NCBI GenBank assembly: GCA_011390635.1 | Contig: JAABSA010000029.1 | Location: forward strand, 1-49,719 | Length of the DNA: 49,719 nucleotides | Direction of reading: 5' to 3' | Source: Desulfotignum sp. | Lineage (GTDB): Bacteria; Desulfobacterota; Desulfobacteria; Desulfobacterales; Desulfobacteraceae | Part shown: positions 26,366 through 39,567 of the stretch, piece by piece | Layout: each line of letters begins with the position of its first letter | How positions within the stretch are numbered: the first letter of the stretch is position 1 | The notes under the pieces: generated by a model | The model's input: only the letters and a program-made list of their open reading frames with translations | Told to the model about the DNA's origin: nothing | Database searches by the model: none | Program-made: the position numbers and the translations under genes

Positions 26366-26606
26366 AATAATCCTCCCGTCTGGTAATTCCCAGTTTGCCG
26401 AACCATTTGGAAACAAAGATGATCACCACGCAGGAGACAAACCCGAACAGTGCCCAGAACCCCCACATGTTTTCCGCTGCGGTGTGGGCCTTTTCCTTGT
26501 CCAGCAGCAGTACGTCAAACCCCACCAGCAGGGCCAGAATGGCACAGCATACCTGGATCACGCGTTTGAGCCGGTGCCGCAGAAATTCGATCAGATCGAC
26601 AATCAT
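26355..26606 (-). CDS. Small two-helix membrane protein of the antiporter operon
   Basis: The 83-residue product has two hydrophobic helices (VIQVCCAILALLVGFDVLLL and WALFGFVSCVVIIFVSKWFG) joined by a charged loop. The ATG overlaps the stop of the preceding antiporter gene (ATGA), and the end overlaps the next start. I cannot assign it to a numbered Mrp or Mbh subunit. Tight coupling suggests an accessory subunit. Confidence 0.75.
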   Translation of the reverse strand: MIVDLIEFLRHRLKRVIQVCCAILALLVGFDVLLLDKEKAHTAAENMWGFWALFGFVSCVVIIFVSKWFGKLGITRREDYYDQ

Positions 26607-28087
26607 GATATCACCATCCTCACAAACTGCATCATCACCCCGGGAAAGATGCCTGCCAGCAGCGACAGCAGCGCTGCCGCCACAATCGGGGCCACCATGA
26701 TCAAAGGCGCTTCCCGGATGCCTGTATCCCCGGTTTCCCCATCCGGGGCCCGGCCGAAAAATGCCTGAAAGGTCACCGGTGCAAAATAGACGATATTGAG
26801 CATGGTGGAGGCCACCAGCACCAGAATGATGGCCATCTGACCGGCATCCAGGGCACCGGTGAGCAGATACCATTTGGTGATGAATCCCCCCACCGGCGGA
26901 GCCCCGATCATGGACAGCGAGGCCAGGGCAAAGGCCCCGAAGGTAAAGGGCATCACCCGGCCCAGTCCCCCCATCTCGGAGATGTTTTTCTTGCGGGTGG
27001 CCACATAGATGGCCCCGGCACAGAAAAACAGGGTGATTTTGGCAAAGGCGTGGTTGGCAATATGGATGATCCCGCCCTGGACCGCTGCCGGTGTGAGCAG
27101 TGCCACTCCCAGGATGATATAGGACAACTGGCTGATGGTGGAATAGGCCAGCCGGGCCTTGAGGTTGTCTCTGGTCATGGCGATGATGGAAGCGGTCACG
27201 ATGGTGAAGGACACAATATATGCCGTCACAATGCCGAGATTGAGGGCATCCATCAGATCGATGCCGAACACGTAGAGCATGACCCGGGTGGTGCAGAACA
27301 CCCCCACCTTGACCACGGCCACGGCATGCAGCAGGGCCGACACCGGGGTCGGGGCCACCATGGCACCGGGCAGCCAGGCATGCATGGGCATCACCCCGTT
27401 TTTGGCAAACCCGAACAGGCAGGCAAAAAACAGGCAGGTCACCAGGGTATCCCCGGTGCCGGCAGGGATGATTCCGGTATGAATATTGTCGGCAAAGGTC
27501 AGGTTTCCCCCCAGGGTAAACAAAATGATCATGGCCGGCAGGACAAGCCCCACGGATCCCCCCAGCAGAAAGGTCAGGTATTTGCGGGACCCGCCCCGGC
27601 CTTCTTTGTCCTGGTGGTGGGCCACCAGGGGATAAGTGGAAAGAGAGAGCATCTCATAAAACAGATACAGGGTCAGCAGGTTGCCGGAAAAGGCCACCCC
27701 GATGGCTGCACACAAAGACAGGGCAAAGCAGATGAAAAAACGGGTCTGGGCATGTTCTGACAGCCCCCGCATATACCCGATGGTATAGGCGGCCGCCACA
27801 ATCCACAAGAAAGAGGACACCAGGGCAAAAACAATGCCGAACGCATCCACCTTAAAACGGATGGCCAGTTCCGGCAGCACCTGGATCAAAGTCACCTCCA
27901 CCACATTGCCGGCCAGAATCCAGCCGGCCAGCAGCAGCACCATGCTGAACTTTACAGCAGCCGCCGCAAAGGTCCAGAACTCCCTCAGATTGGGATGCCG
28001 GCGGCTGAGGGCGATCAGGGGCACAACCCCCAGAGATGCGCACAGGGCAATCACCGGGGCGGTCTGATAAAAGGCGGCGGAAAACAT
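26603..28087 (-). CDS. MrpD/NuoN-like proton-conducting antiporter subunit
   Basis: The 494-residue membrane protein has about 14 helices. Conserved features include LTLYLFYEMLSLSTYPLVAH with the key Glu, KNGVMPMHAWLPGAMVAPTP with the conserved Lys, and HIANHAFAKITLFFCAGAIY. This is the second of three large antiporter-like subunits in the operon. It follows the first (28118) by 30 bases and overlaps the small membrane protein. Confidence 0.9.
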   Translation of the reverse strand: MFSAAFYQTAPVIALCASLGVVPLIALSRRHPNLREFWTFAAAAVKFSMVLLLAGWILAGNVVEVTLIQVLPELAIRFKVDAFGIVFALVSSFLWIVAAAYTIGYMRGLSEHAQTRFFICFALSLCAAIGVAFSGNLLTLYLFYEMLSLSTYPLVAHHQDKEGRGGSRKYLTFLLGGSVGLVLPAMIILFTLGGNLTFADNIHTGIIPAGTGDTLVTCLFFACLFGFAKNGVMPMHAWLPGAMVAPTPVSALLHAVAVVKVGVFCTTRVMLYVFGIDLMDALNLGIVTAYIVSFTIVTASIIAMTRDNLKARLAYSTISQLSYIILGVALLTPAAVQGGIIHIANHAFAKITLFFCAGAIYVATRKKNISEMGGLGRVMPFTFGAFALASLSMIGAPPVGGFITKWYLLTGALDAGQMAIILVLVASTMLNIVYFAPVTFQAFFGRAPDGETGDTGIREAPLIMVAPIVAAALLSLLAGIFPGVMMQFVRMVIS

Positions 28088-28117
28088 GACCAGGTTTGAG
28101 GTCTCCTTTCTAGATAT

Positions 28118-29638
28118 CTAAATACCGGAAGGTACGGACCAGCGGATCAGGTATTGGACCACTTCGTTGGTATAAATTCCCAGTCCGACCAGGGCCGCGC
28201 CGGTAAACACCAGGGGCAGCAGCATGGTCAGGGGTGCCTCGTCCATGCGGATTTTCAAGGCTGCGGTGCCGGGCTTTCCGTTGCTCTTTTCAATCATCAG
28301 ATCATCCAATCGGCCGAAAAAAGCCTTCTCCAGCAGCTTGAAAAACATCACCGCCGCTACCAGGCCGGCAATGATCAGGGCAGCCACAAACACCCATGCC
28401 CCGGCCTGGACTGCGCCCTGGAGCAGGTACCACTTGGAAAAAAATCCGCAGGTGGGCGGGATACCCAACACGGACGCAGCCCCCACCAGAAAAACGGCTG
28501 CGGTGACCGGCATCCGCTGGAATATTCCCTGCATGGCGGCGGCCCGGCTCTCGCCGGTCCGGTAGATGATGGCCCCCACCGCCATGAACAGACACAGGGT
28601 TATGATCCCGTCAGCCAGGATATGATAGACCGCGCCGGTGTACCCGGCGGTATTGGCCAGCCAGGCCCCGCCGGTCAGGTATCCGATCTCAGCCACGATG
28701 ATATAGGTCAGCATTTTGCGCAGGTCCCGCTGTGACAGGGCCGTTATCATCCCCAGCACCGCAGCCGCAGATGCCAGAAAGATCACCAGCCGGCTCCAGG
28801 CGATCTGCTGGAAAACATAGTCGGCGGAAAATACGGTATACATCATCCGCAGCATCACATACACACTGACCTTGGTCATGAGCGGGGCGATGAGGCAGGC
28901 CGTGGTGGTGCCGGCCCGGCTGTAGGCATTGGGCAGCCAGGCATGAAGGGGAAACAGGGCCATCTTGATCCAGATCCCGAGAATGATCAGGGTGAAGCCG
29001 ATCCGCACACTCACCGATTCCCTAAGTTCCGGCCGGCTGAGGATCTCGGCCAAATCGGCCATGTTCAGGGACCCGGTCATGATGTAGAGGTATCCCACGC
29101 CCAGCAGATAAAAGCAGGCCCCGATGGTGCCCATCACCAGGTACCGGAAGGTAGCGTAATAGGCCGGGCCACGCCCCCGGGCCAGCATGCCGTAGCTGGA
29201 AAGTGCGGAAATCTCCAGCAATACATACAGGTTGAACACATCCCCGGCAGCTGTCATTCCCAAAAGACCGGCCACCAGCAGGGCAAACAGGGCATAATAG
29301 TGATGCAGCCGGTCCGGGTTGTCCTGTCTTGCAGTGTGCAGGGAATAGATGGCAGTGAGCAGGGAGCAGGTCCCCACCAGCGCCAGAACCCCCGCGCTCA
29401 GATGGTCGATCACCAGTTCGATGCCCATGGGCGGCATCCAGTCCCCCATGCGGTAGTGAACGGCCCGACCCGTTTGCACCACCTGGACCAGCATGGCCAG
29501 GGAGGCGGTAAGGGACAGGGACAGGGACGCGATCAGCAGGCCATACGCGGCCCGGTGGCCCAGGGGTCCGATCAGGGTCAGGGCCAGGGATGCGAACACA
29601 GGTACCACAATCATGAGGACAGGCGCCTGATCCATCAT
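28118..29638 (-). CDS. mrpD: MrpD-type antiporter subunit (MbhH-like)
   Basis: The 506-residue membrane protein shows VFNLYVLLEISALSSYGMLA with the essential Glu, IWIKMALFPLHAWLPNAYSR with the conserved Lys, and YHILADGIITLCLFMAVGAI. Following directly after the MrpC gene (4-base overlap), it occupies the MbhH/MrpD position. Proton or sodium translocation is expected from the family. Confidence 0.92.
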   Translation of the reverse strand: MMDQAPVLMIVVPVFASLALTLIGPLGHRAAYGLLIASLSLSLTASLAMLVQVVQTGRAVHYRMGDWMPPMGIELVIDHLSAGVLALVGTCSLLTAIYSLHTARQDNPDRLHHYYALFALLVAGLLGMTAAGDVFNLYVLLEISALSSYGMLARGRGPAYYATFRYLVMGTIGACFYLLGVGYLYIMTGSLNMADLAEILSRPELRESVSVRIGFTLIILGIWIKMALFPLHAWLPNAYSRAGTTTACLIAPLMTKVSVYVMLRMMYTVFSADYVFQQIAWSRLVIFLASAAAVLGMITALSQRDLRKMLTYIIVAEIGYLTGGAWLANTAGYTGAVYHILADGIITLCLFMAVGAIIYRTGESRAAAMQGIFQRMPVTAAVFLVGAASVLGIPPTCGFFSKWYLLQGAVQAGAWVFVAALIIAGLVAAVMFFKLLEKAFFGRLDDLMIEKSNGKPGTAALKIRMDEAPLTMLLPLVFTGAALVGLGIYTNEVVQYLIRWSVPSGI

Positions 29639-30024
29639 TTTCTCAGGTCCTCCAGGATTTCATCCTCCTCGATGGTCCCATGGACCCGCTGAATCTTCTG
29701 CAACAGGGCCAGGGCTACCCCCAGCACGGCCACCCCCACCACAATGGCGGTAAGAATCAGTACATGGGGCAGCGGATTGGCATAAGCGGAAGCCTCCAGC
29801 AGGGGCTGCTTATCTGCAGAAAATTCGATGATCGGTACCGTTGCCCCCCGCTTCACCCCGATTGACACGATAAACAGGAGGATCGCGGTCTGGAAAATCA
29901 CCATTCCAATAATCTTTTTCATCAGGTTGTTTCTCACGATCATCCCGTACAACCCGATGAACAACAGCACCAGGGAGGCCCAGTAGTTGTATTTGGCGAT
30001 GATGAAATAAAACAGGTCATCCAT
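29635..30024 (-). CDS. mrpC: MrpC/NuoK-like antiporter subunit
   Basis: The 129-residue product has three membrane helices; the last is LPHVLILTAIVVGVAVLGVA, the typical MrpC/NuoK third helix. The loop between helices 2 and 3 is hydrophilic and the C-terminal tail is acidic (EEDEILEDL). ATG 30024 has GAGGGG about 11 bases upstream and lies 4 bases after the previous stop. Confidence 0.92.
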   Translation of the reverse strand: MDDLFYFIIAKYNYWASLVLLFIGLYGMIVRNNLMKKIIGMVIFQTAILLFIVSIGVKRGATVPIIEFSADKQPLLEASAYANPLPHVLILTAIVVGVAVLGVALALLQKIQRVHGTIEEDEILEDLRK

Positions 30025-30028
30025 GGCG

Positions 30029-31060
30029 CTACAACCCCTCTTCCAGGTCGCCGCCCGAGGCGAGATCATAATACAGCGACACCATCACCGCCATTACGGT
30101 GATGCCCACACCCACCTCCACGGCCAGGATACCATGGGATCGGGCCATGACTTCGGTCACCCCCAAAAATCGTGCCAGAGCCTCATAGCCCAGAAAATTC
30201 CACCCCAGGGCCAGGCACACGGCACCGATCCCGGCATACAGCAGGACTCCTCCGGCACAGCACCACAGCACTGCGTGTTCCCGAAACCGGTTCATGGAGA
30301 ACTTCAGGTTGTAGCACAGGGCCAGCAGAATGAAGCTGGCACCGAAAATCACCCCGCCCTGGAACCCGCCCCCGGGGCTGTAATGGCCATGGCACAAAAC
30401 ATACAGCGCAAAAATCTGCATTACCGGAATGATGGACTGGGCAGCCCCCCGCAGCACCGTGTCCCGGCCCTCCCGTTTGGGCCGCAGCCGCAGCACCTTG
30501 CGGTGCTTATGGGAGGTGTGGCGCAGCACCACCATGACAACCAGGGCTGCGGCAAACACCACCACTGATTCGAACATGGTGTCATAACTCCGGTAGTCCG
30601 CCAGCACCGCAGTCACCACATTAGGGGTGGCGGTTTCATGGTACCCCTGCCTGATAAACCCGGGTGACAGATGGGTGCTGGCCGGAGAGGCCGGGTCGGC
30701 CCAGTCCGGCAGGTCCCTGGTTGCCGCGAGCATCATTACGGCGCAGATCACCGCGATGACCAGGGTGATCTGCTTGATCCCCTGTTCTCCGGGCCGATCC
30801 GCCTTGATCCACCGGTTGATATACTGGGCCGTACCCAGGAAAATCACCGTACTGATGGCCGCCCCCACGGCCGCCTCGGTAAACGCCACATCCACCGCCA
30901 TCATATGGGTCCACATCAAGCAGATGAGGAAACTGTACACCCCGGTCACAATGGCGCTGCTGATCAACCCGTCAAGGGCCAGGGCCGCAACGGCACAAAT
31001 CACCATCATCAACAGAATCAGGATATCGAACTGCCACAGCAGACTGGTATCCCAGACCAT
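30029..31060 (-). CDS. Fused MbhD-MbhE-MbhF (DUF4040 + MrpB) antiporter subunit
   Basis: The 343-residue protein joins what are usually three subunits. Residues 10-85 are DUF4040/MbhD (AVDVAFTEAAVGAAISTVIF). Residues 90-195 resemble MbhE (LVIAVICAVMMLAATRDLPD, then YRSYDTMFESVVVFAAALVV). Residues 205-335 are MrpB/MbhF (YVLCHGHYSPGGGFQGGVIF). In bacterial Mrp the first two parts lie at the C terminus of MrpA; here they are fused to MrpB instead. It follows the MrpG gene by 9 bases. Confidence 0.88.
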   Translation of the reverse strand: MVWDTSLLWQFDILILLMMVICAVAALALDGLISSAIVTGVYSFLICLMWTHMMAVDVAFTEAAVGAAISTVIFLGTAQYINRWIKADRPGEQGIKQITLVIAVICAVMMLAATRDLPDWADPASPASTHLSPGFIRQGYHETATPNVVTAVLADYRSYDTMFESVVVFAAALVVMVVLRHTSHKHRKVLRLRPKREGRDTVLRGAAQSIIPVMQIFALYVLCHGHYSPGGGFQGGVIFGASFILLALCYNLKFSMNRFREHAVLWCCAGGVLLYAGIGAVCLALGWNFLGYEALARFLGVTEVMARSHGILAVEVGVGITVMAVMVSLYYDLASGGDLEEGL

Positions 31061-31069
31061 CGCACCCCC

Positions 31070-31462
31070 CTATCCTTTCAGGTCTTCCGGGTAAAACTTG
31101 TTTTCACCATTTTCATCCGTGCCCGCTTTACCGGTGCGGTCAGACGTCCTGGTCCAGTAGGGAACCCGGAACTCGTAACCGGCATCCACAATGGCATGGG
31201 TGGCCGTGGGACTGGCAATGAAAATATAAAACACGATCAACAGCAGCTTGATGGCGGTCAGCAGGGCATCACCACTGAAATCCCGCAGCAGGTATACAAT
31301 GACCCCGCCCAGAAACAGGGAAGTGGAAAGGGTGTCTCCCTTGCCGGCCGCATGGACCCGGGAGTAGAAATCTGGAAACCGGATGATTCCCACGGTGGTG
31401 GCTACAAAAAAAGACAGCCCGGTGAGCATCATGAGAATAACCAGAATATCAAATCCAATCAT
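31070..31462 (-). CDS. mrpG: MrpG antiporter subunit (MbhC-like)
   Basis: The 130-residue product has three helices and the MrpG signature VGIIRFPDFYSRVHAAGKGD near residues 24-43, then SPTATHAIVDAGY. A hydrophilic tail of about 35 residues after the third helix is longer than usual. The start overlaps the MrpF stop by 4 bases. Confidence 0.93.
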   Translation of the reverse strand: MIGFDILVILMMLTGLSFFVATTVGIIRFPDFYSRVHAAGKGDTLSTSLFLGGVIVYLLRDFSGDALLTAIKLLLIVFYIFIASPTATHAIVDAGYEFRVPYWTRTSDRTGKAGTDENGENKFYPEDLKG

Positions 31463-31839
31463 TTGTTTTCCTCCTTTTCCGAATCGGGTTCGGCCGCAGC
31501 GGCATCCGCCTCTTCCACCAGGGGACCGGCCGACGGCGCTGTCAGTGATTCTCTTGGTTCCGGCGGGGCCGGCTGCGCGATGCGCTGGTAAAAACGGGCC
31601 GCCGCTATGGTGGTGATGAAATTGAGCAGGGCATAGGCCAGGGTGATATCGATGAACATCTCCACCCGGCCGTCAATGATCCCGATGAGCACGATCAGGA
31701 CGGTTGTCTTGATACCGATGACGTTCATGCCAAGCATCCGGTCGATGACCGTGGGGCCTGCTACCACCCGGTAGAGGTTGCACAGCATCAGAAACAACAG
31801 CGCCACTACCATGGCGATAAAGAACAGTTCCAGGTTCAT
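31459..31839 (-). CDS. mrpF: MrpF antiporter subunit (MbhB-like)
   Basis: The 126-residue product has three helices and the conserved MrpF box CNLYRVVAGPTVIDRMLGMN, then DGRVEMFIDITLAYALLNFI. A Pro/Glu/Ala-rich cytoplasmic tail of about 35 residues (PAPPEPRESL) is an extension beyond normal MrpF. It overlaps the MrpE stop by 4 bases. Confidence 0.93.
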   Translation of the reverse strand: MNLELFFIAMVVALLFLMLCNLYRVVAGPTVIDRMLGMNVIGIKTTVLIVLIGIIDGRVEMFIDITLAYALLNFITTIAAARFYQRIAQPAPPEPRESLTAPSAGPLVEEADAAAAEPDSEKEENK

Positions 31840-32339
31840 CGGGTCCCGCCTTCAAACACCCAGGCGACCCAGCGCTCCATCTCTCCGGGCCCCGGACCGG
31901 CCAGGTCAGCCGAGGAACGCCGGGTGATTGCATGGACATAAAAGGTATCTTCTTCGATTCTGACACTCACGGTGCCGGGGGTCAGGGTAATGGAGTTGGC
32001 CAGGACAAACCGGGCGAAATCGGTTTTCAGAGAGGTTTTGAATTTGATAATATGGGGTTCCAGGTGTTTTCGAGGATGCAGCGACAGGGCCAGCCCGGCG
32101 ATATGAAAATTGGCCAGCACGATCTGTCCGAAAAGCCATACCAGATATCTGAGAAAGCAGGCGATTTCAACCAGGGTGGGGGCCAGTTTTTTCGTGTGGC
32201 CTTCAAAAAGCAGGTCATGTGATAGCCAGGCCACCAGGCCGCTGGAAAAAATTCCCATGCCCAGATGAAAACCATCGAATTTTCCGGACAATGCCGTCCA
32301 GAAGAGAAACATGACAAAAAAAGTGAAGATAGCCGGCAT
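31836..32339 (-). CDS. mrpE: MrpE antiporter subunit (MbhA-like)
   Basis: The 167-residue product has two N-terminal membrane helices and the MrpE core FARFVLANSITLTPGTVSVR near residue 108, followed by a soluble domain. It is the first gene of a nine-gene operon in the order E-F-G-[DEF fusion]-C-D-D-small-NuoL, which matches the archaeal MbhA-H order. GGAG lies about 10 bases before the ATG. Confidence 0.9.
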   Translation of the reverse strand: MPAIFTFFVMFLFWTALSGKFDGFHLGMGIFSSGLVAWLSHDLLFEGHTKKLAPTLVEIACFLRYLVWLFGQIVLANFHIAGLALSLHPRKHLEPHIIKFKTSLKTDFARFVLANSITLTPGTVSVRIEEDTFYVHAITRRSSADLAGPGPGEMERWVAWVFEGGTR

Positions 32340-33480: not shown

Positions 33481-35508
33481 TCAGTCAGCCTGGGTCTTAT
33501 ACTCCATGGGCAGCTTTTTGAACCGCCCACCGTGGAGAATCGGGTCCCCTTTATATCCCAGGGCCTTGAAATTGATGTAGTCGGTTTTTTCAATCAAATG
33601 GTCCACATCCCGTCCCATTGATTTCATATAGGAAAAATCGGTTCCCTTTTGGGCAATGGCCTTGAAATCAACCTCCCGGTTGTCCTGGTGGCACCGGTTG
33701 CAGGTCTGATCGCCTTTGAGGCTTTCATGGCACTGGGCACAGGACAAGGCCATGTCTGCGGGCATGACCTCATGGTTGATCCGCCAGTACATCCAGGTTT
33801 CCTTCCATGTGACGTCCCCGCTGTAGGGCAGGTCCACCGCCTTCATTCCCGCCTGAAACGCCTTGTCCCAGTCCAGGTTTTTCCAGTAGGCCGTGGTGTT
33901 GTCCTTGTCTGCGGAAAACAGCTGGGGCACCAGCACATGGGCATGTTCCGCGTCAATGGCCTGAATGCCTTTCATGATTTTGAAGGCCGTGATCTTGGAC
34001 TCCGGATCATTGATGGAGCCCACCGGATCGGTCAGGGTGATCACGTCCGCCTCCAGGTCCACCTTGTCCCCCATGAGGACCCGGTCCATATATCCGGCGT
34101 ACCAGGTATAATCCGGCACACCGGATTCTTCCCATTTGAATTCCCCTTTTTTCCAGTTGTAGTCGGGCTGGCCGTATTTGTCTTTTTTCACCTCACGGTC
34201 CTTGTCTCCGGCCTTGGACCAGTCCCACCAGGTTTTGGTGGGTTTGCACTTGGCAAACACCGGGGCATGGCAGACATTGCATGCCACGGTTCTGCTGTGG
34301 TCGTTGAGATGGTGATCCAGCAGGCCGCCGCTGTAATGGGGGGTGTCTGAATGACATTTTTCACAGGACACCACCCCTTCGGCCACGGGCACGGAGGAAC
34401 TTTTTCCGGCAATTTTGTGGTTCCGGGTTTTGTGACACTCTGCACAGGCAAAATCATACCCGCCCATGTGGATATCGCAGTTCCGGTCCGGTGTCAGCAG
34501 CTGGCGGGACATGTCTGCATGCTTGATGGCATCCCCGCCGCCGCCATTGAAATGGCAGGCCCCGCAGGTGGCCCTGGAGGAATGCCCCACATTCTGTGCC
34601 ACCAGTTTCAGGTCTACATCCTTTTTGGGCATACCTGCTCCGGGCGGGTCCTTCTTGTAAGTCCCGGTGGTATCATGACACACCAGGCAGTCTATTCTGG
34701 TTTTATCGGTAAAATCAAAAGATGCATCTTTCCATCCATATCCTGCATGACAGCTTGTGCAACGAGCCTCGTTGCTGATGGGGCTGATTCAGAAATTGTT
34801 CAGGGCTGTGGTCCCTTTGCCGTGCAAAATATCCTTGCGGTGACCGGTGGTGTATGGAGACGGTCCCCGCCACAACCAGTGGGCGGTTTTGAGCATGTCT
34901 TCCCCCTGGGTGTCATGGCATTCCAGGCAGGCTTTGGTCACCTGGATGGGATCCGGGTTGTCCGGCAGTTTCACCAGTTCCTTGTGATCCGGCACATGCT
35001 TGAGGTGACACCCCGTGCAGTCCACCGGTCCTTTTGCCTCTTGCTGATGGCATTCCATGCACTGCTGGTGGTAGGCTGCCTTGAGCCCGATGCGCTCCGG
35101 ATGATCCGGATTGAAACTGTCCTGGTGGCAGGCGGAACACCGGGTGGTTTCCAGGGCGTTTTCATCCCTGGGCCGAAAATGGTGGCATTTGCTGCAGTCG
35201 TTCACCAGGGCTGCATGCCGTTTATGGGCAAACCGCACCGGTTCATAATGGTCTTCTCTTTCCTTGATGATGGGGCTGTCCAGCAGAAAATACACCTCTT
35301 TCACATCGTCCAGAGACACACCGGCATCCATCAGGCAGATACGCCGGCTGATCTGGCAATCATCCTGGTATTCCTTTACAAACGGCACCACCTCTTTGGC
35401 CCTTTCCCTGGCCCGTTCCTGGTCCGTGGCCTGCCAGGCCCGGGCCGTACAAACGCCTGCCAGCAACGGTATAAGACCAACGAGACAAACAATTTTTTTA
35501 ATCATCAT
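33481..35508 (-). CDS. Multihaem c-type cytochrome of the octahaem tetrathionate-reductase family with in-frame UGA (probable selenoprotein)
   Basis: The continuous frame from ATG 35508 to TGA at 33481 is interrupted only by TGA at 34791-34789 (codon 240). Reading it as selenocysteine gives 675 residues. A signal peptide (VCLVGLIPLLAGVCTARAWQ) puts it in the periplasm. Five CXXCH motifs lie before U240 (about 105, 124, 150, 164, 194) and eight after (250, 274, 315, 355, 382, 410, 590, 603). The first four form an added N-terminal domain. From CLECH onward the protein matches octahaem tetrathionate reductase, including RCTSCHAGYGWKDASFDFTD right after the TGA and before any usable start codon. 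Homologs, as I recall, carry Cys at the U240 site (NNF-Cys-I). The ATG overlaps the NrfD stop (ATGA) and AAGGAGG precedes it. Probable role: reduction or oxidation of a sulfur or nitrogen oxyanion. Confidence 0.82.
34749..34791 (-). promoter_or_regulatory. Putative bacterial SECIS element after UGA codon 240
   Basis: Immediately 3' of the UGA (mRNA sense) the sequence folds as GCAACG-AGGCT-CGTTGC, a 6-bp perfect stem (7 if A-T closes) with a 3-5 base loop. The stem starts 14 bases and the loop 20 bases after the UGA. A small apical loop with G in its first two positions, about 16-37 bases from UGA, is the general description of bacterial SECIS hairpins recognised by SelB. Confidence 0.65.
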
Positions 35509-36704
35509 GATACCTCCTTGGATTCCTGTAACACCGGCAGATAGGTGACAACAACTCTATAAATGAACATCAGTGCCGCAATAAGTCCCAGGGTAACCAG
35601 TATTTCTGATGGGGCCGGAAAATATCCGTTTTCACTTAACGGCGATCTGTACCCCACGATAAACACATTGATCCGGTTCATCACAACCCCTCCGACAACC
35701 AAAGCCGCTGCTGTAAACAAGCCTTTTGACGAATGCCTGATAGTCTTACACAACAGCATGGCCCAGGGAAGCATCACCCCGAACAGCACCTCCACGATAA
35801 AGGCATTGGTCTGGTAAGTGCCGTCCAGAAGGTATACCCAGGTTCCCCTTACCAGCATATCACCGAGCTTAAGCAGCATGTAGATCCCCAAAAGATAAAT
35901 AGTGATCCGGGTCAACGGCGCCAGGATGTGCATTTCAGAATTCAGCCTGAATGATGCCGTGGCCAGGGTGGTTTCAAACACCACCATGGGATATCCTACG
36001 GCTATGGCTGAGGTAAGAAACAACAGGGGCAGCAGGGGGGTGTACCACAAGGGGTGCAGTTTGGTGGGGGCCACCAGCATGAGGGACCCTAAACTGGATT
36101 GGTGCATGCAGGACAAGACCACTCCCAGGATGATAAAAATCCACATCACCTTGCCCAGAATTCTGTCCGCCACCTGTAAAACTTTATCCACCAGGTTGTT
36201 CAGTTTCGACAGGAGCCCCGGCAGGTTCACCCGGCCCTTGAACTGCTCTGCCACAATGGGCACAAACTCAATATACAGGACCGTGAGATAAATCATCACA
36301 CACATGGCAACCTCAAACAGCACGGAATTTAAATTCCAGTGGAACATGGGCTTCCAGATGGCCCAGGAACGGCCGATATCCACCAGCAGTCCCAGCACCA
36401 CAAAGGTATATCCCAGCACGGCCGTCAACAAGGCCGGCCGGGTGACCGGTTCATAATAATGCCGCCCGAAGATATGGGCCAGGGCCGCTGTTGTGAATCC
36501 GCCGGCAGCCAGGGCTACGCCGGTGGCCACATCAATGCCCACCCAGATGCCCCAGGGCCTGGCATTGGTCAGATTGGTGACATAACCGATACCTCCGGTG
36601 AACCGGGCGATAATGGCCAGGGCCCCGGCAAACATGAATACCAGCATCACCAGCACCCCGGGGGTCCACAAAGGCCGGTTCATGGGACCTGCTTTATGTT
36701 CCAT
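35505..36704 (-). CDS. nrfD: NrfD/HybB-type membrane quinone-interacting subunit
   Basis: The 399-residue protein has about ten membrane helices and starts RPLWTPGVLVMLVFMFAGAL. Conserved NrfD-family features are ARPWGIWVGIDVATGVALAA and HQSSLGSLMLVAPTKLHPLW, the latter placed near the quinone site in relatives such as PsrC and HybB. It would exchange electrons between menaquinone and the HybA-like ferredoxin and, through it, the cytochrome. Its start overlaps the HybA end and its stop overlaps the cytochrome start. Confidence 0.92.
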   Translation of the reverse strand: MEHKAGPMNRPLWTPGVLVMLVFMFAGALAIIARFTGGIGYVTNLTNARPWGIWVGIDVATGVALAAGGFTTAALAHIFGRHYYEPVTRPALLTAVLGYTFVVLGLLVDIGRSWAIWKPMFHWNLNSVLFEVAMCVMIYLTVLYIEFVPIVAEQFKGRVNLPGLLSKLNNLVDKVLQVADRILGKVMWIFIILGVVLSCMHQSSLGSLMLVAPTKLHPLWYTPLLPLLFLTSAIAVGYPMVVFETTLATASFRLNSEMHILAPLTRITIYLLGIYMLLKLGDMLVRGTWVYLLDGTYQTNAFIVEVLFGVMLPWAMLLCKTIRHSSKGLFTAAALVVGGVVMNRINVFIVGYRSPLSENGYFPAPSEILVTLGLIAALMFIYRVVVTYLPVLQESKEVS

Positions 36705-37627
36705 CAGGCACCTCCTTTATCTGCGTTGTTTTGCTTTTGGTCGTTCCCCCGGTTGAACCGGGCCATACATGCTCCGAGTACCCCGAACAGCAGTACCGGT
36801 GACCACAGATAACTGAACAGAGAATGCTGGATGGTTTCCGACAGTTTCGGGGACGGGGTATCCGGCAGCAGCGGCAGGTTCACCTCCTCAAAAGGCACCG
36901 ATGAAAGATACATCCAGGAAGTACCCCCCACCTCTTTTTCCCCGTAAATATGCTGGATGTAGCTGCCCGGATTTTCCTTGAGCCTTTTTCTGGCCACCCC
37001 CAGAAGTGTTTGCCGCCTGCCGAATGTCAGTGCTTCGGTGGGACAGATGCCGGCACATCCTGGCAGTCCGCCTTTTTTGGAAATACGTTCCTGGCAGAAG
37101 GTGCATTTCATCACCCGGGGGGTTATGGGATCATAATACTCATACGCCGGAATTTCAAAGGGACAGGCCACCATGCAGTACCGGCATCCAATGCATTTGG
37201 ACACATCATAATGAACTGCACCGGTATCGTCCTTGGTCAAGGCACCAACAATACAGGCGGACACGCATGCCGGATCCTGGCAGTGCATGCACTGGACCTT
37301 GGCATAGGTGGGTACGGGCTTGTCAAAGACATCCACCGTACCGGTATAATACCGGTTGATAACGGTATATGACGTATCATCCGGACGTCGGTCCTTTTCA
37401 AAAATAGTACACTGGCAGTTGACCCGCTCCGGCTCCGGCAGGTCATTGACCTTTGCGCAGGCTTCTTCACACTTGCGGCACCCCACACACCGAGTCAGGT
37501 CCACCAGGCACCCGAAAGGATCCGGGGGTGCCTGGGACTGCCATGCATGGACAGATGGTGGCCGGACAGCGACGGATGCCCCGGCAGCACCCATGAATCT
37601 AAAAAAATTCCGTCTGGTGATGTGCAT
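36704..37627 (-). CDS. HybA-like periplasmic 4Fe-4S ferredoxin
   Basis: The 307-residue protein has a twin-arginine signal ([19 protein letters not shown]), so it is exported folded. Four [4Fe-4S] cysteine groups follow: [43 protein letters not shown] and CTFCQERI...CAGICP. A single C-terminal membrane helix ([20 protein letters not shown]) anchors it. It links NrfD to the multihaem cytochrome. ATG 37627 has AAAGGAGG 6 bases upstream; the open frame from 37669 lacks such a site. Confidence 0.93.
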
Positions 37628-37676
37628 GTTTCCTCCTTTTTCGGATTCCTCCACACTATTTATATACACTTACAAC

Positions 37677-37925
37677 CTACCTATCATCATAAGATCTTGG
37701 CCCTTTTCTGATACCAATGCAGATACCCTCTTTTGTCTGCCGCTGGTACAGTACTTCATCATTTGACCGGAAGATGATCATGGTCAGATTTTTCACCACA
37801 TCCGCATCCGCCAATAGGACATCCAGTATATCCCCTGTGTCCATGGATTGGAGACAGGCATTGCATTTGAGAAGATCCATGGGGGATACCACCCCTTTGA
37901 GATTCAATGTAATTTTTGCCGTCAT
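37677..37925 (-). CDS. TusA-like protein without the usual catalytic Cys
   Basis: The 82-residue product aligns with the TusA/SirA fold: ITLNLKGVVSPMDLLKCNAC, then GDILDVLLADADVVKNLTMI. In TusA the site reads C-P-x-P; here it is S-P-M-D, and instead a CNAC pair occurs 8 residues later. Sulfur transfer through the normal Cys is therefore unlikely, while another Cys could serve. It is the first gene of the sigma-54 operon with the ferredoxin, NrfD and selenocytochrome. GGAG lies 6 bases before the ATG. Confidence 0.75.
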   Translation of the reverse strand: MTAKITLNLKGVVSPMDLLKCNACLQSMDTGDILDVLLADADVVKNLTMIIFRSNDEVLYQRQTKEGICIGIRKGPRSYDDR

Positions 37926-37986: not shown

Positions 37987-38002
37987 TGCAACCCCCATGC
38001 CC
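37987..38002 (-). promoter_or_regulatory. Sigma-54 promoter of the selenocytochrome operon
   Basis: On the minus strand GGGCATG-GGGG-TTGCA matches TGGCACG-N4-TTGCW except at two outer positions, with GG and GC at the exact 12-base distance. Transcription would start about 50 bases before the TusA-like gene. Confidence 0.7.
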
Positions 38003-38100: not shown

Positions 38101-38144
38101 GTAAACACATGTTTAATTTTAACTATAATTTAACATGTGTTTAC
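38101..38144. promoter_or_regulatory. Paired palindromic activator sites
   Basis: GTAAACACATGTT (38101-38113) and AACATGTGTTTAC (38132-38144) are perfect inverse copies. The core TAAACA-CA-TGTTTA is itself palindromic. Their centres are about 31 bases apart (three helical turns), 100-140 bases upstream of the sigma-54 promoter, and next to the activator gene: a classic enhancer arrangement. Confidence 0.75.
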
Positions 38145-38163
38145 TTTCTCAAAGACAAGGAAA

Positions 38164-39567
38164 ATGCCGATGAAAGAGCATGACATGAACCTATTCTGGA
38201 AAAAGATCGTCAACACCATCAATGACGGACTCATGTTCATCGGGCCTGAAGGGAGCATCCTCATGGTGAACAAGGCCTTTGAAACCCTCACCGGATATAG
38301 CTCCGACCAGGCCATCGGCCTGTCCTGCACCATATTGGGGTGTGATGCCTGTGAGCGGTTCATGCAGACCAGGCAGAATACGATCTGGTGCAAGCTGTTT
38401 GAGCCGGGCCAGCAGGACATGAAAAAATGCCGCTGTCTGATCCGGCGCAAAGACGGCAGCTTTCTTCCGGTATTAAAAAACGCCTCTGTCTTGCGGGATG
38501 AAAACCAGACGATCATGGGGGTTGTGGAAACCCTTACCGACATATCTGAACTGGCCAAGCTGGATGAAAAAGTCCATCTTTTGTCCAGACAATATGACCG
38601 GGAAGATGATTTTTGCGGCATTGTGGGCAGATCCCAACGCATGCGCCAGGTGTTTGAACTGGTCAAAAAAGCATCGGAAAGCAATGCACCGGTAATTATT
38701 TTAGGAGAAAGCGGTACCGGTAAGGAACTGGTTGCCAATGCCATCCATTTGTGCGGTGCCCGGAAAAACGGCCCCTTTGTCCAGCTCAATTGTGCGGCCC
38801 TTAATGAGGCAGTGCTGGAAAGTGAATTGTTCGGGCATGCCAAAGGTGCGTTCACCGGTGCTTACAGCAGCCGCATCGGCAGGTTCGAAGCAGCTAATCA
38901 GGGGGATATTTTTTTAGATGAAATCGGCGATGTTCCCATCTCTTTGCAGACCAAGCTGCTCCGGGTACTGGAATCCGGCCGGTTTGAACGGGTGGGGGAT
39001 ATTTCACCCATCCAGACGGATGCCAGGATCATCACTGCCACCAATAAAAACCTTGAAGACCTGATCAGACAGGAAAAATTCAGGCAGGATCTGTTTTTCA
39101 GGATCAATGTCATCCCCATTCATCTGCCGCCCCTGCGAAAAAGAAAACAGGATATCCCTTTGCTGATCACCGCGTTTCTTCAGCGCCTCAACGCAAAGAC
39201 CGGCAAAGCCATAAAGGGCCTGGACAACCAGACCCTGGACCTGTTTATGGGCTATTCATGGCCCGGCAACATCCGGGAGTTGAAAAATGCGCTGGAGTAT
39301 GCCTTTGTTGTGGCGGACACAACCTTCATCGGGTTACACCATCTGCCCAGGCACCTCACTGGTGATACTACCGTGGATCAGGCCCTTGTTTTTACACGGA
39401 ACACAAAGCACAATGCACCTGATGAAAGAACCGCCCTGATTCAGGCCCTGAAACAGGCAAACGGCAACCAGACAAAGGCAGCCCAACTGCTCAACATCAC
39501 CCGGGTAACGGTATGGAACCGCATGAAAAAACACGGCATTGACCTGAAGCGGGTGCTGTCGGTATAA
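38164..39567 (+). CDS. Sigma-54-dependent activator (PAS-AAA-Fis)
   Basis: The 467-residue protein has a PAS domain (about 10-125) that carries several Cys (ILGCDACERF, TIWCKLFE, KKCRC), possibly a redox or metal sensor. The AAA domain has Walker A GESGTGKELVANAIH, the sigma-54 contact loop GAFTGAY and DEIGDVPISLQTKLLRVLES. A C-terminal Fis-type helix-turn-helix reads QTKAAQLLNITRVTVWNRMK. There is no receiver domain. ATG 38164 (or 38170) follows AAGGA; the longer frame would begin inside the palindromic sites. It most likely activates the divergent selenocytochrome operon. Confidence 0.9.
   Translation: MPMKEHDMNLFWKKIVNTINDGLMFIGPEGSILMVNKAFETLTGYSSDQAIGLSCTILGCDACERFMQTRQNTIWCKLFEPGQQDMKKCRCLIRRKDGSFLPVLKNASVLRDENQTIMGVVETLTDISELAKLDEKVHLLSRQYDREDDFCGIVGRSQRMRQVFELVKKASESNAPVIILGESGTGKELVANAIHLCGARKNGPFVQLNCAALNEAVLESELFGHAKGAFTGAYSSRIGRFEAANQGDIFLDEIGDVPISLQTKLLRVLESGRFERVGDISPIQTDARIITATNKNLEDLIRQEKFRQDLFFRINVIPIHLPPLRKRKQDIPLLITAFLQRLNAKTGKAIKGLDNQTLDLFMGYSWPGNIRELKNALEYAFVVADTTFIGLHHLPRHLTGDTTVDQALVFTRNTKHNAPDERTALIQALKQANGNQTKAAQLLNITRVTVWNRMKKHGIDLKRVLSV

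Follow-up and report, generated by a model that had tools for sequence, protein, structure and literature searches.

An in-frame UGA in a multihaem cytochrome of the octahaem tetrathionate reductase family of Desulfotignum is probably read as selenocysteine

Introduction

In Desulfotignum sp. (assembly GCA_011390635.1), the reading frame of a multihaem cytochrome of the octahaem tetrathionate reductase (OTR) family is crossed by a single in-frame UGA. Is this codon a stop, or is it translated, and as which amino acid? We analyzed the 49,719-nucleotide stretch of contig JAABSA010000029.1 that carries the gene, hereafter the window. An initial annotation of the window had proposed a probable selenocytochrome. 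The homologous sequences compared here support this proposal, and we estimate the probability that UGA codon 240 is read as selenocysteine (Sec) at about 0.93.

Results

The interrupted gene and its domains

The frame comprises 675 codons on the minus strand, and codon 240 is its only internal TGA. The features of the gene are as follows.

33481 to 35508, minus strand: 13-haem cytochrome, predicted to be translated with read-through of one UGA; 500.6 bits against the NCBIfam model of the OTR family, TIGR04315 (cut-off 375).
35005 to 35253, minus strand: cytochrome c3-like domain, residues 86-168 (PF02085, 51 bits).
33721 to 34953, minus strand: octahaem OTR core, residues 186-596, with the haem-2 motif CTSCH at 250-254.
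34789 to 34791, minus strand: UGA codon 240, predicted Sec codon, aligned with Cys64 of 1SP3.
34522 to 34524, minus strand: codon of Lys329, aligned with Lys153 of 1SP3.

The protein begins with a leader that resembles a signal peptide by eye. It contains 13 CXXCH motifs, five encoded before the TGA (at 105, 124, 150, 164 and 194) and eight after it (at 250, 274, 315, 355, 382, 410, 590 and 603). Under the standard code, the gene appears as separate open frames, one of 239 and one of 400 codons, so a naive annotation would lose the protein. The first start downstream of the TGA is GTG 34683, which is codon 276. It falls within CLVCH at 274, the third core haem motif, and a protein started there would thus lack core haems 1 to 3. 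The initial annotation had described a 675-codon frame open save for one TGA (34791-34789), with five CXXCH motifs before it and eight after it, and our counts bear this out. It had also placed two haem motifs in the 35 codons between the TGA and the GTG. CTSCH at 250 does lie there, and of CLVCH at 274 only the two leading residues do.

The eight core haem motifs are the CXXCH at 194, 250, 274, 315, 355, 382, 410 and 590. The top match in the PDB was 1SP3, the OTR of Shewanella oneidensis, with 393.7 bits across residues 175-595. Counted along this alignment, codon 240 corresponds to Cys64 and Lys329 to Lys153, which we take to be the distal ligand of the active-site haem. Of the 205 homologues with TGA or Cys that have a residue in this column, 203 retain the lysine and the other two have Arg. 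Within the core, codon 240 falls between haems 1 and 2, 10 residues N-terminal to the haem-2 motif. According to PMC4484225, the catalytic haem of OTR is haem II, and the substrates of the Shewanella enzyme are nitrite, hydroxylamine and tetrathionate. From the 10-residue spacing and the alignment with 1SP3, we infer that the Sec residue would lie close to the catalytic haem. The protein shares with 1SP3 the octahaem core and the aligned Cys/Sec site and lysine. It differs in having a TGA in place of the Cys codon, a c3 domain and one additional C-terminal haem motif, and in an operon that brings HmcB-like and NrfD-like subunits. The AlphaFold model of the protein was poor (mean pLDDT 60.1, pTM 0.60) and was set aside. 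A second, distant OTR paralogue in the same genome (L098, G000:C9:37043-38332) has Cys at the site of codon 240.

Codon 240 in homologous cytochromes

We collected homologues from 145 relatives, of which 141 gave a match, from 79 GTDB loci (the best 80 of 191 were kept in the scan), and from a phylum draw of 395 genomes, of which 66, including the window's own, gave a match at E 1e-75. The window protein served as the query for the relatives and the phylum draw, and Desulfobacterota are over-represented in the sample. Of 238 loci, 236 had the site (L155 and L156 lacked it), and removal of 29 repeated cores left 207 distinct homologues.

The codon in the column of codon 240 is TGA in 86 of these homologues, TGC in 76, TGT in 44 and ACT in one. 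Thus, 206 of the 207 have Cys (120) or TGA (86). The sole exception, L213, has Thr. Partial counts agree, with 44 TGA and 46 Cys in 90 loci and, in 78 rows of which one is a weak second match in L167, 37 TGA and 41 Cys. By name, the TGA loci of the GTDB scan belong to Desulfobacterota lineages or to metagenome-assembled genomes called Deltaproteobacteria, and among these relatives of the window protein the loci named for other phyla all have Cys. The TGA also occurs in the named isolates Desulfocicer vacuolatum and Desulfamplus magnetovallimortis (L128, L137). The initial annotation had expected Cys here in family members, just before the second haem of the core, and had asked whether other Desulfobacterales carry TGA. 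The Cys column (Cys64 in 1SP3), the distance of 10 residues to the haem-2 motif and the many other Desulfobacterota with TGA agree with these expectations.

Side by side with this, the base preceding the UGA, at the end of codon 239 (34792-34794), is C in 83 of 86 TGA copies versus 85 of 120 Cys copies. Perhaps this is a context effect on UGA decoding.

We then placed Sec and not-Sec states on a tree of 206 rows (L063 was too short and was dropped), from which the SECIS columns had been removed and in which L213 was scored as not-Sec. The trees were quick and have many weak forks; on this one, at least 12 changes between the states are needed, and well-supported branches force 8 for the Cys label. 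Judged by these trees, Sec and Cys have been exchanged repeatedly. Apparently, many lineages do well enough with Cys, and this gives weight to a different view of the residue, in which Sec is inserted and has a structural or protective role outside catalysis at haem 2. Such a view competes with our mechanism and leaves insertion untouched. We regard it as a serious competitor that falls somewhat short of an even chance, since the restriction of the site to Cys or TGA in 206 of 207 homologues, 10 residues before the haem-2 motif, speaks against it.

Two hairpin designs downstream of the UGA

Insertion of Sec in bacteria would be directed by a SECIS hairpin following the UGA. We coded a model of this element to the bacterial limits as they are quoted in PMC13188914; it requires a loop 16-37 nt downstream with a G within its first two positions. 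The element that follows codon 240 of the cytochrome gene is as follows.

34759 to 34775, minus strand: bacterial SECIS hairpin of class A, GCAACGA[GGC]UCGUUGC, loop 20 nt 3' of the UGA.

The model recognizes a hairpin in all 86 TGA copies versus 1 of 120 Cys copies. As background, we took the remaining Cys codons of the TGA genes in an earlier set, and 68 of these 1542 codons fitted the model. It turned out that the TGA copies use two unrelated designs. In class A (53 copies, including that of the window), the form is GCAACGA[GGC or GUC]UCGUUGC, and the loop lies 20 nt downstream of the UGA. In the 33 copies of class B, the stem is of the GGUGC type and the distance from the UGA to the loop is 24 nt. 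Neither hairpin is retained in any of the 120 Cys copies. Class A was earlier chosen by AACGAG at codons 246-247, and in the analyses of synonymous change, trees and stem pairs by GCAACGAG, which fixes codons 246-247 together with the second and third bases of codon 245; class B comprises all remaining TGA copies. In class B, the outer pair of the stem is C-G in 29 copies and U-A in 4; at an inner pair, 31 copies have G-C and 2 have G-U. The class A stem offers no evidence of covariation, its pairs being invariant across copies.

In class A, selected as above, the fraction of synonymous differences in the 7-codon hairpin window was 0.026 versus a median of 0.516, the lowest of 400 windows, and codons 248, 249 and 250, which the choice of the class does not force, showed zero synonymous change. 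In class B, the value was 0.096 versus a median of 0.564 (rank 1 of 400 for low synonymous change). At the class A place, the Cys copies gave 0.487 (rank 79 of 400), and at the class B place they gave 0.508 (rank 123 of 400). Folding energy did not distinguish the window element. Its 52-nt fold was no stabler than shuffled sequences (z -0.23; 75 of 200 were as good), and class A lies exactly at the energy limit of -7.5. The case for the hairpin therefore rests on conservation. A search with Rfam models gave matches at chance level only. The SECIS hairpin is the strongest evidence for Sec, and it was absent from the initial annotation.

The hairpins overlap residue 248 of the protein. Cys copies have Pro there in 90 of 120 cases and Ala in 9. 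Among TGA copies, class A has Ala (49) or Ser (4), and class B has Cys in all 33. From these alignments, the hairpin RNA seems to override the amino acid preferred at this position. Three Cys copies (L072, L073, L077) are 1-2 bases off the class A hairpin and retain Ala; their sequences look like decayed SECIS elements after a recent conversion. The Desulfobacter group (L044, L045, L047-L049) and Desulfospira (L030) lie within a clade in which most copies have Sec; their own copies combine Cys with Pro and lack the hairpin. For these cases we infer the direction from Sec to Cys. Class A appears in two distant clades of a tree with 1 of 143 rows left out, which may reflect descent or transfer of the segment.

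The same data bear on the simplest reading of the codon, that it is a true stop, either in a decaying gene or at the intended end of a five-haem short form. In favour of this reading, 3 of the 207 homologues (L056, L176 and L069) have one more in-frame stop in the part that was aligned. However, the stop at codon 240 recurs in 86 distinct copies, each followed by a hairpin that fits the SECIS model. Moreover, among 10 pairwise comparisons of the region 3' of the TGA, the 7 with a finite dS gave dN/dS values of 0.066-0.116. Strong purifying selection acts on this region, and termination at codon 240 is very unlikely.

Selenocysteine machinery

The genome contains selA, selB and selD, each above the curated cut-off, and selD carries a TGA of its own (GAGUAAK). 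The gene of tRNA-Sec, selC, was not found in this assembly with the Rfam model, with ARAGORN on candidate loci, with a pattern or with BLAST using congeners. A search of the genome for the four sel genes had been proposed earlier; it thus succeeded for three of them. The assembly is a draft of 98 contigs with a completeness of 96.4%. Within the genus, tRNA-Sec exceeds the Rfam cut-off in 8 of 13 genomes, the genome studied here being among the other five, and ARAGORN identified tRNA-Sec in all four congener loci given to it. We take the absence of selC as a gap in the draft assembly.

Among relatives with a TGA copy, 39 of 42 (counted by hand) have a SelB match at E 1e-65. In the TGA-bearing genomes G126, G081 and G144, relaxing the limit still gave no SelB above the cut-off; G126, which stands as an exception, is 97% complete. 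In the TGA-bearing G001, one of the 39, the SelB match is partial and under the cut-off. Since SelB matches at E 1e-65 in 128 of 145 relatives overall, its presence says little and is useless as a correlation test.

Separately, two genomes of the genus (L198 and L199, that is G008:C1 and G011:C1; L270) have a second, divergent selB adjoining a second tRNA-Sec, and the pair may represent an additional system for decoding Sec. In G011, the neighbours of the second selB resemble, by eye, genes of a NuoE/NuoF-type oxidoreductase.

The missing selC could be taken to mean that the UGA is read as another amino acid, for example as Trp or through near-cognate read-through, with no Sec machinery involved. 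This is even less likely than a true stop, because 120 of the 121 non-TGA copies have TGC or TGT and none has TGG, while selA, selB and selD are present and the conserved hairpin agrees with the SECIS model. A sequencing or assembly error that turned TGC, TGT or TGG into TGA, for which only the draft state of the assembly with its 98 contigs would speak, has a negligible chance and is refuted for the family by the recurrence of TGA at codon 240 in 42 relatives' genomes (hand count) and in the isolates Desulfocicer vacuolatum and Desulfamplus magnetovallimortis.

The operon

Upstream of the cytochrome gene, the following features were found.

35505 to 36704, minus strand: NrfD/HmcC-like integral membrane subunit, in the same order in relatives.
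36704 to 37669, minus strand: HmcB/HybA-like 4Fe-4S ferredoxin subunit; by eye, its leader looks twin-arginine-like.
37677 to 37925, minus strand: small TusA-like protein, possibly encoded by the first gene of the operon (27.9 bits, just below the Pfam cut-off of 28.6).
38137 to 39567, plus strand: divergent activator with a PAS domain, dependent on sigma-54, a possible regulator of the operon by its position only.

HmcB-like and NrfD-like genes lie upstream of the cytochrome in 39 of 62 GTDB loci, counting those with at least 2.5 kb of upstream DNA, and occur with both Sec and Cys copies. Of the 23 loci without the pair, L158, L160 and L163 match only the core. By analogy, this arrangement suggests a quinone-linked complex built like the Hmc complex of sulfate reducers. 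The two systems share HmcB-like and HmcC-like subunits, and the c3-like domain is related to the end of HmcA. However, the haem subunit here is an OTR, and all three scores are under the curated NCBIfam equivalog cut-offs (HmcA 57.7 of 400, HmcB 338.3 of 420 and HmcC 284.8 of 550 bits). Therefore, we do not class the system as Hmc.

Between the activator gene and the operon, a 17-nt inverted repeat (38105-38140, 88% complementary) is a possible binding site of the activator. A sigma-54-like site at 37987-38002 was given no weight, because the window contains 40 such matches versus 39.1 expected by chance. Downstream of the cytochrome, on the minus strand at 26603-32339, genes resemble by eye a multisubunit cation/proton antiporter of the Mrp type.

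Discussion

The proposal of a selenocytochrome is supported by TGA or Cys at codon 240 in 206 of 207 homologues, by the SECIS model in 86 of 86 TGA copies and by selA, selB and selD in the genome. In the mechanism that we propose, SelB and tRNA-Sec would decode UGA 240 as Sec, directed by the hairpin whose loop starts 20 nt downstream. The product would be a full-length, exported 13-haem cytochrome in which a c3 domain is fused to the OTR core, with Sec placed 10 residues ahead of the haem-2 motif, at a site occupied by Cys in other members. Together with the HmcB-like Fe-S subunit and the NrfD/HmcC-like subunit, the cytochrome probably forms a membrane-anchored complex, and this complex probably connects the quinone pool with the multihaem chain by electron transfer. 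A selenolate at or next to the haem-2 site may then reduce a sulfur or nitrogen oxyanion.

As to what selenium does and what the substrate is, this is conjecture, which we hold at a little under even odds. More doubtful is the mechanism taken as a whole: the selenolate would act directly at the Lys-ligated catalytic haem, an oxyanion would be reduced in a quinone-linked 13-haem complex, and the two SECIS designs would dictate residue 248 and so reshape the surroundings of the active site. We put it forward tentatively.

Selenoproteins in this family are not new, since Table 1 of a 2026 review (PMC13188914) lists a tetrathionate reductase family octahaem cytochrome (TIGR04315 / WP_331457571.1) with one Sec as annotated in GenBank. 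That entry agrees with our protein in its family and in the single Sec; it is a table line that comes without a Sec motif or supporting analysis. The same table contains ExtKL (NF040886), which is likewise a multihaem c-type cytochrome with one Sec. Nevertheless, ExtKL is a separate family, and only 1 of 21 aligned members touched NF040886 (E 0.0004). In a search of the open-access literature, the family was named as a selenoprotein only in this table line of PMC13188914, and we came across no study of the two SECIS designs, the correspondence with Cys64, the effect on residue 248 or the operon of the c3-OTR fusion. The evidence presented here goes well beyond the prior listing of TIGR04315.

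To our knowledge, the function of OTR-family enzymes in sulfate reducers is unsettled, and an enzyme with selenium next to its catalytic haem would be chemically unusual. The natural exchange of Sec and Cys in these cytochromes provides matched pairs for testing what selenium adds. In addition, the family shows that a hairpin within a coding region may be able to override the preferred amino acid of the protein that it encodes.
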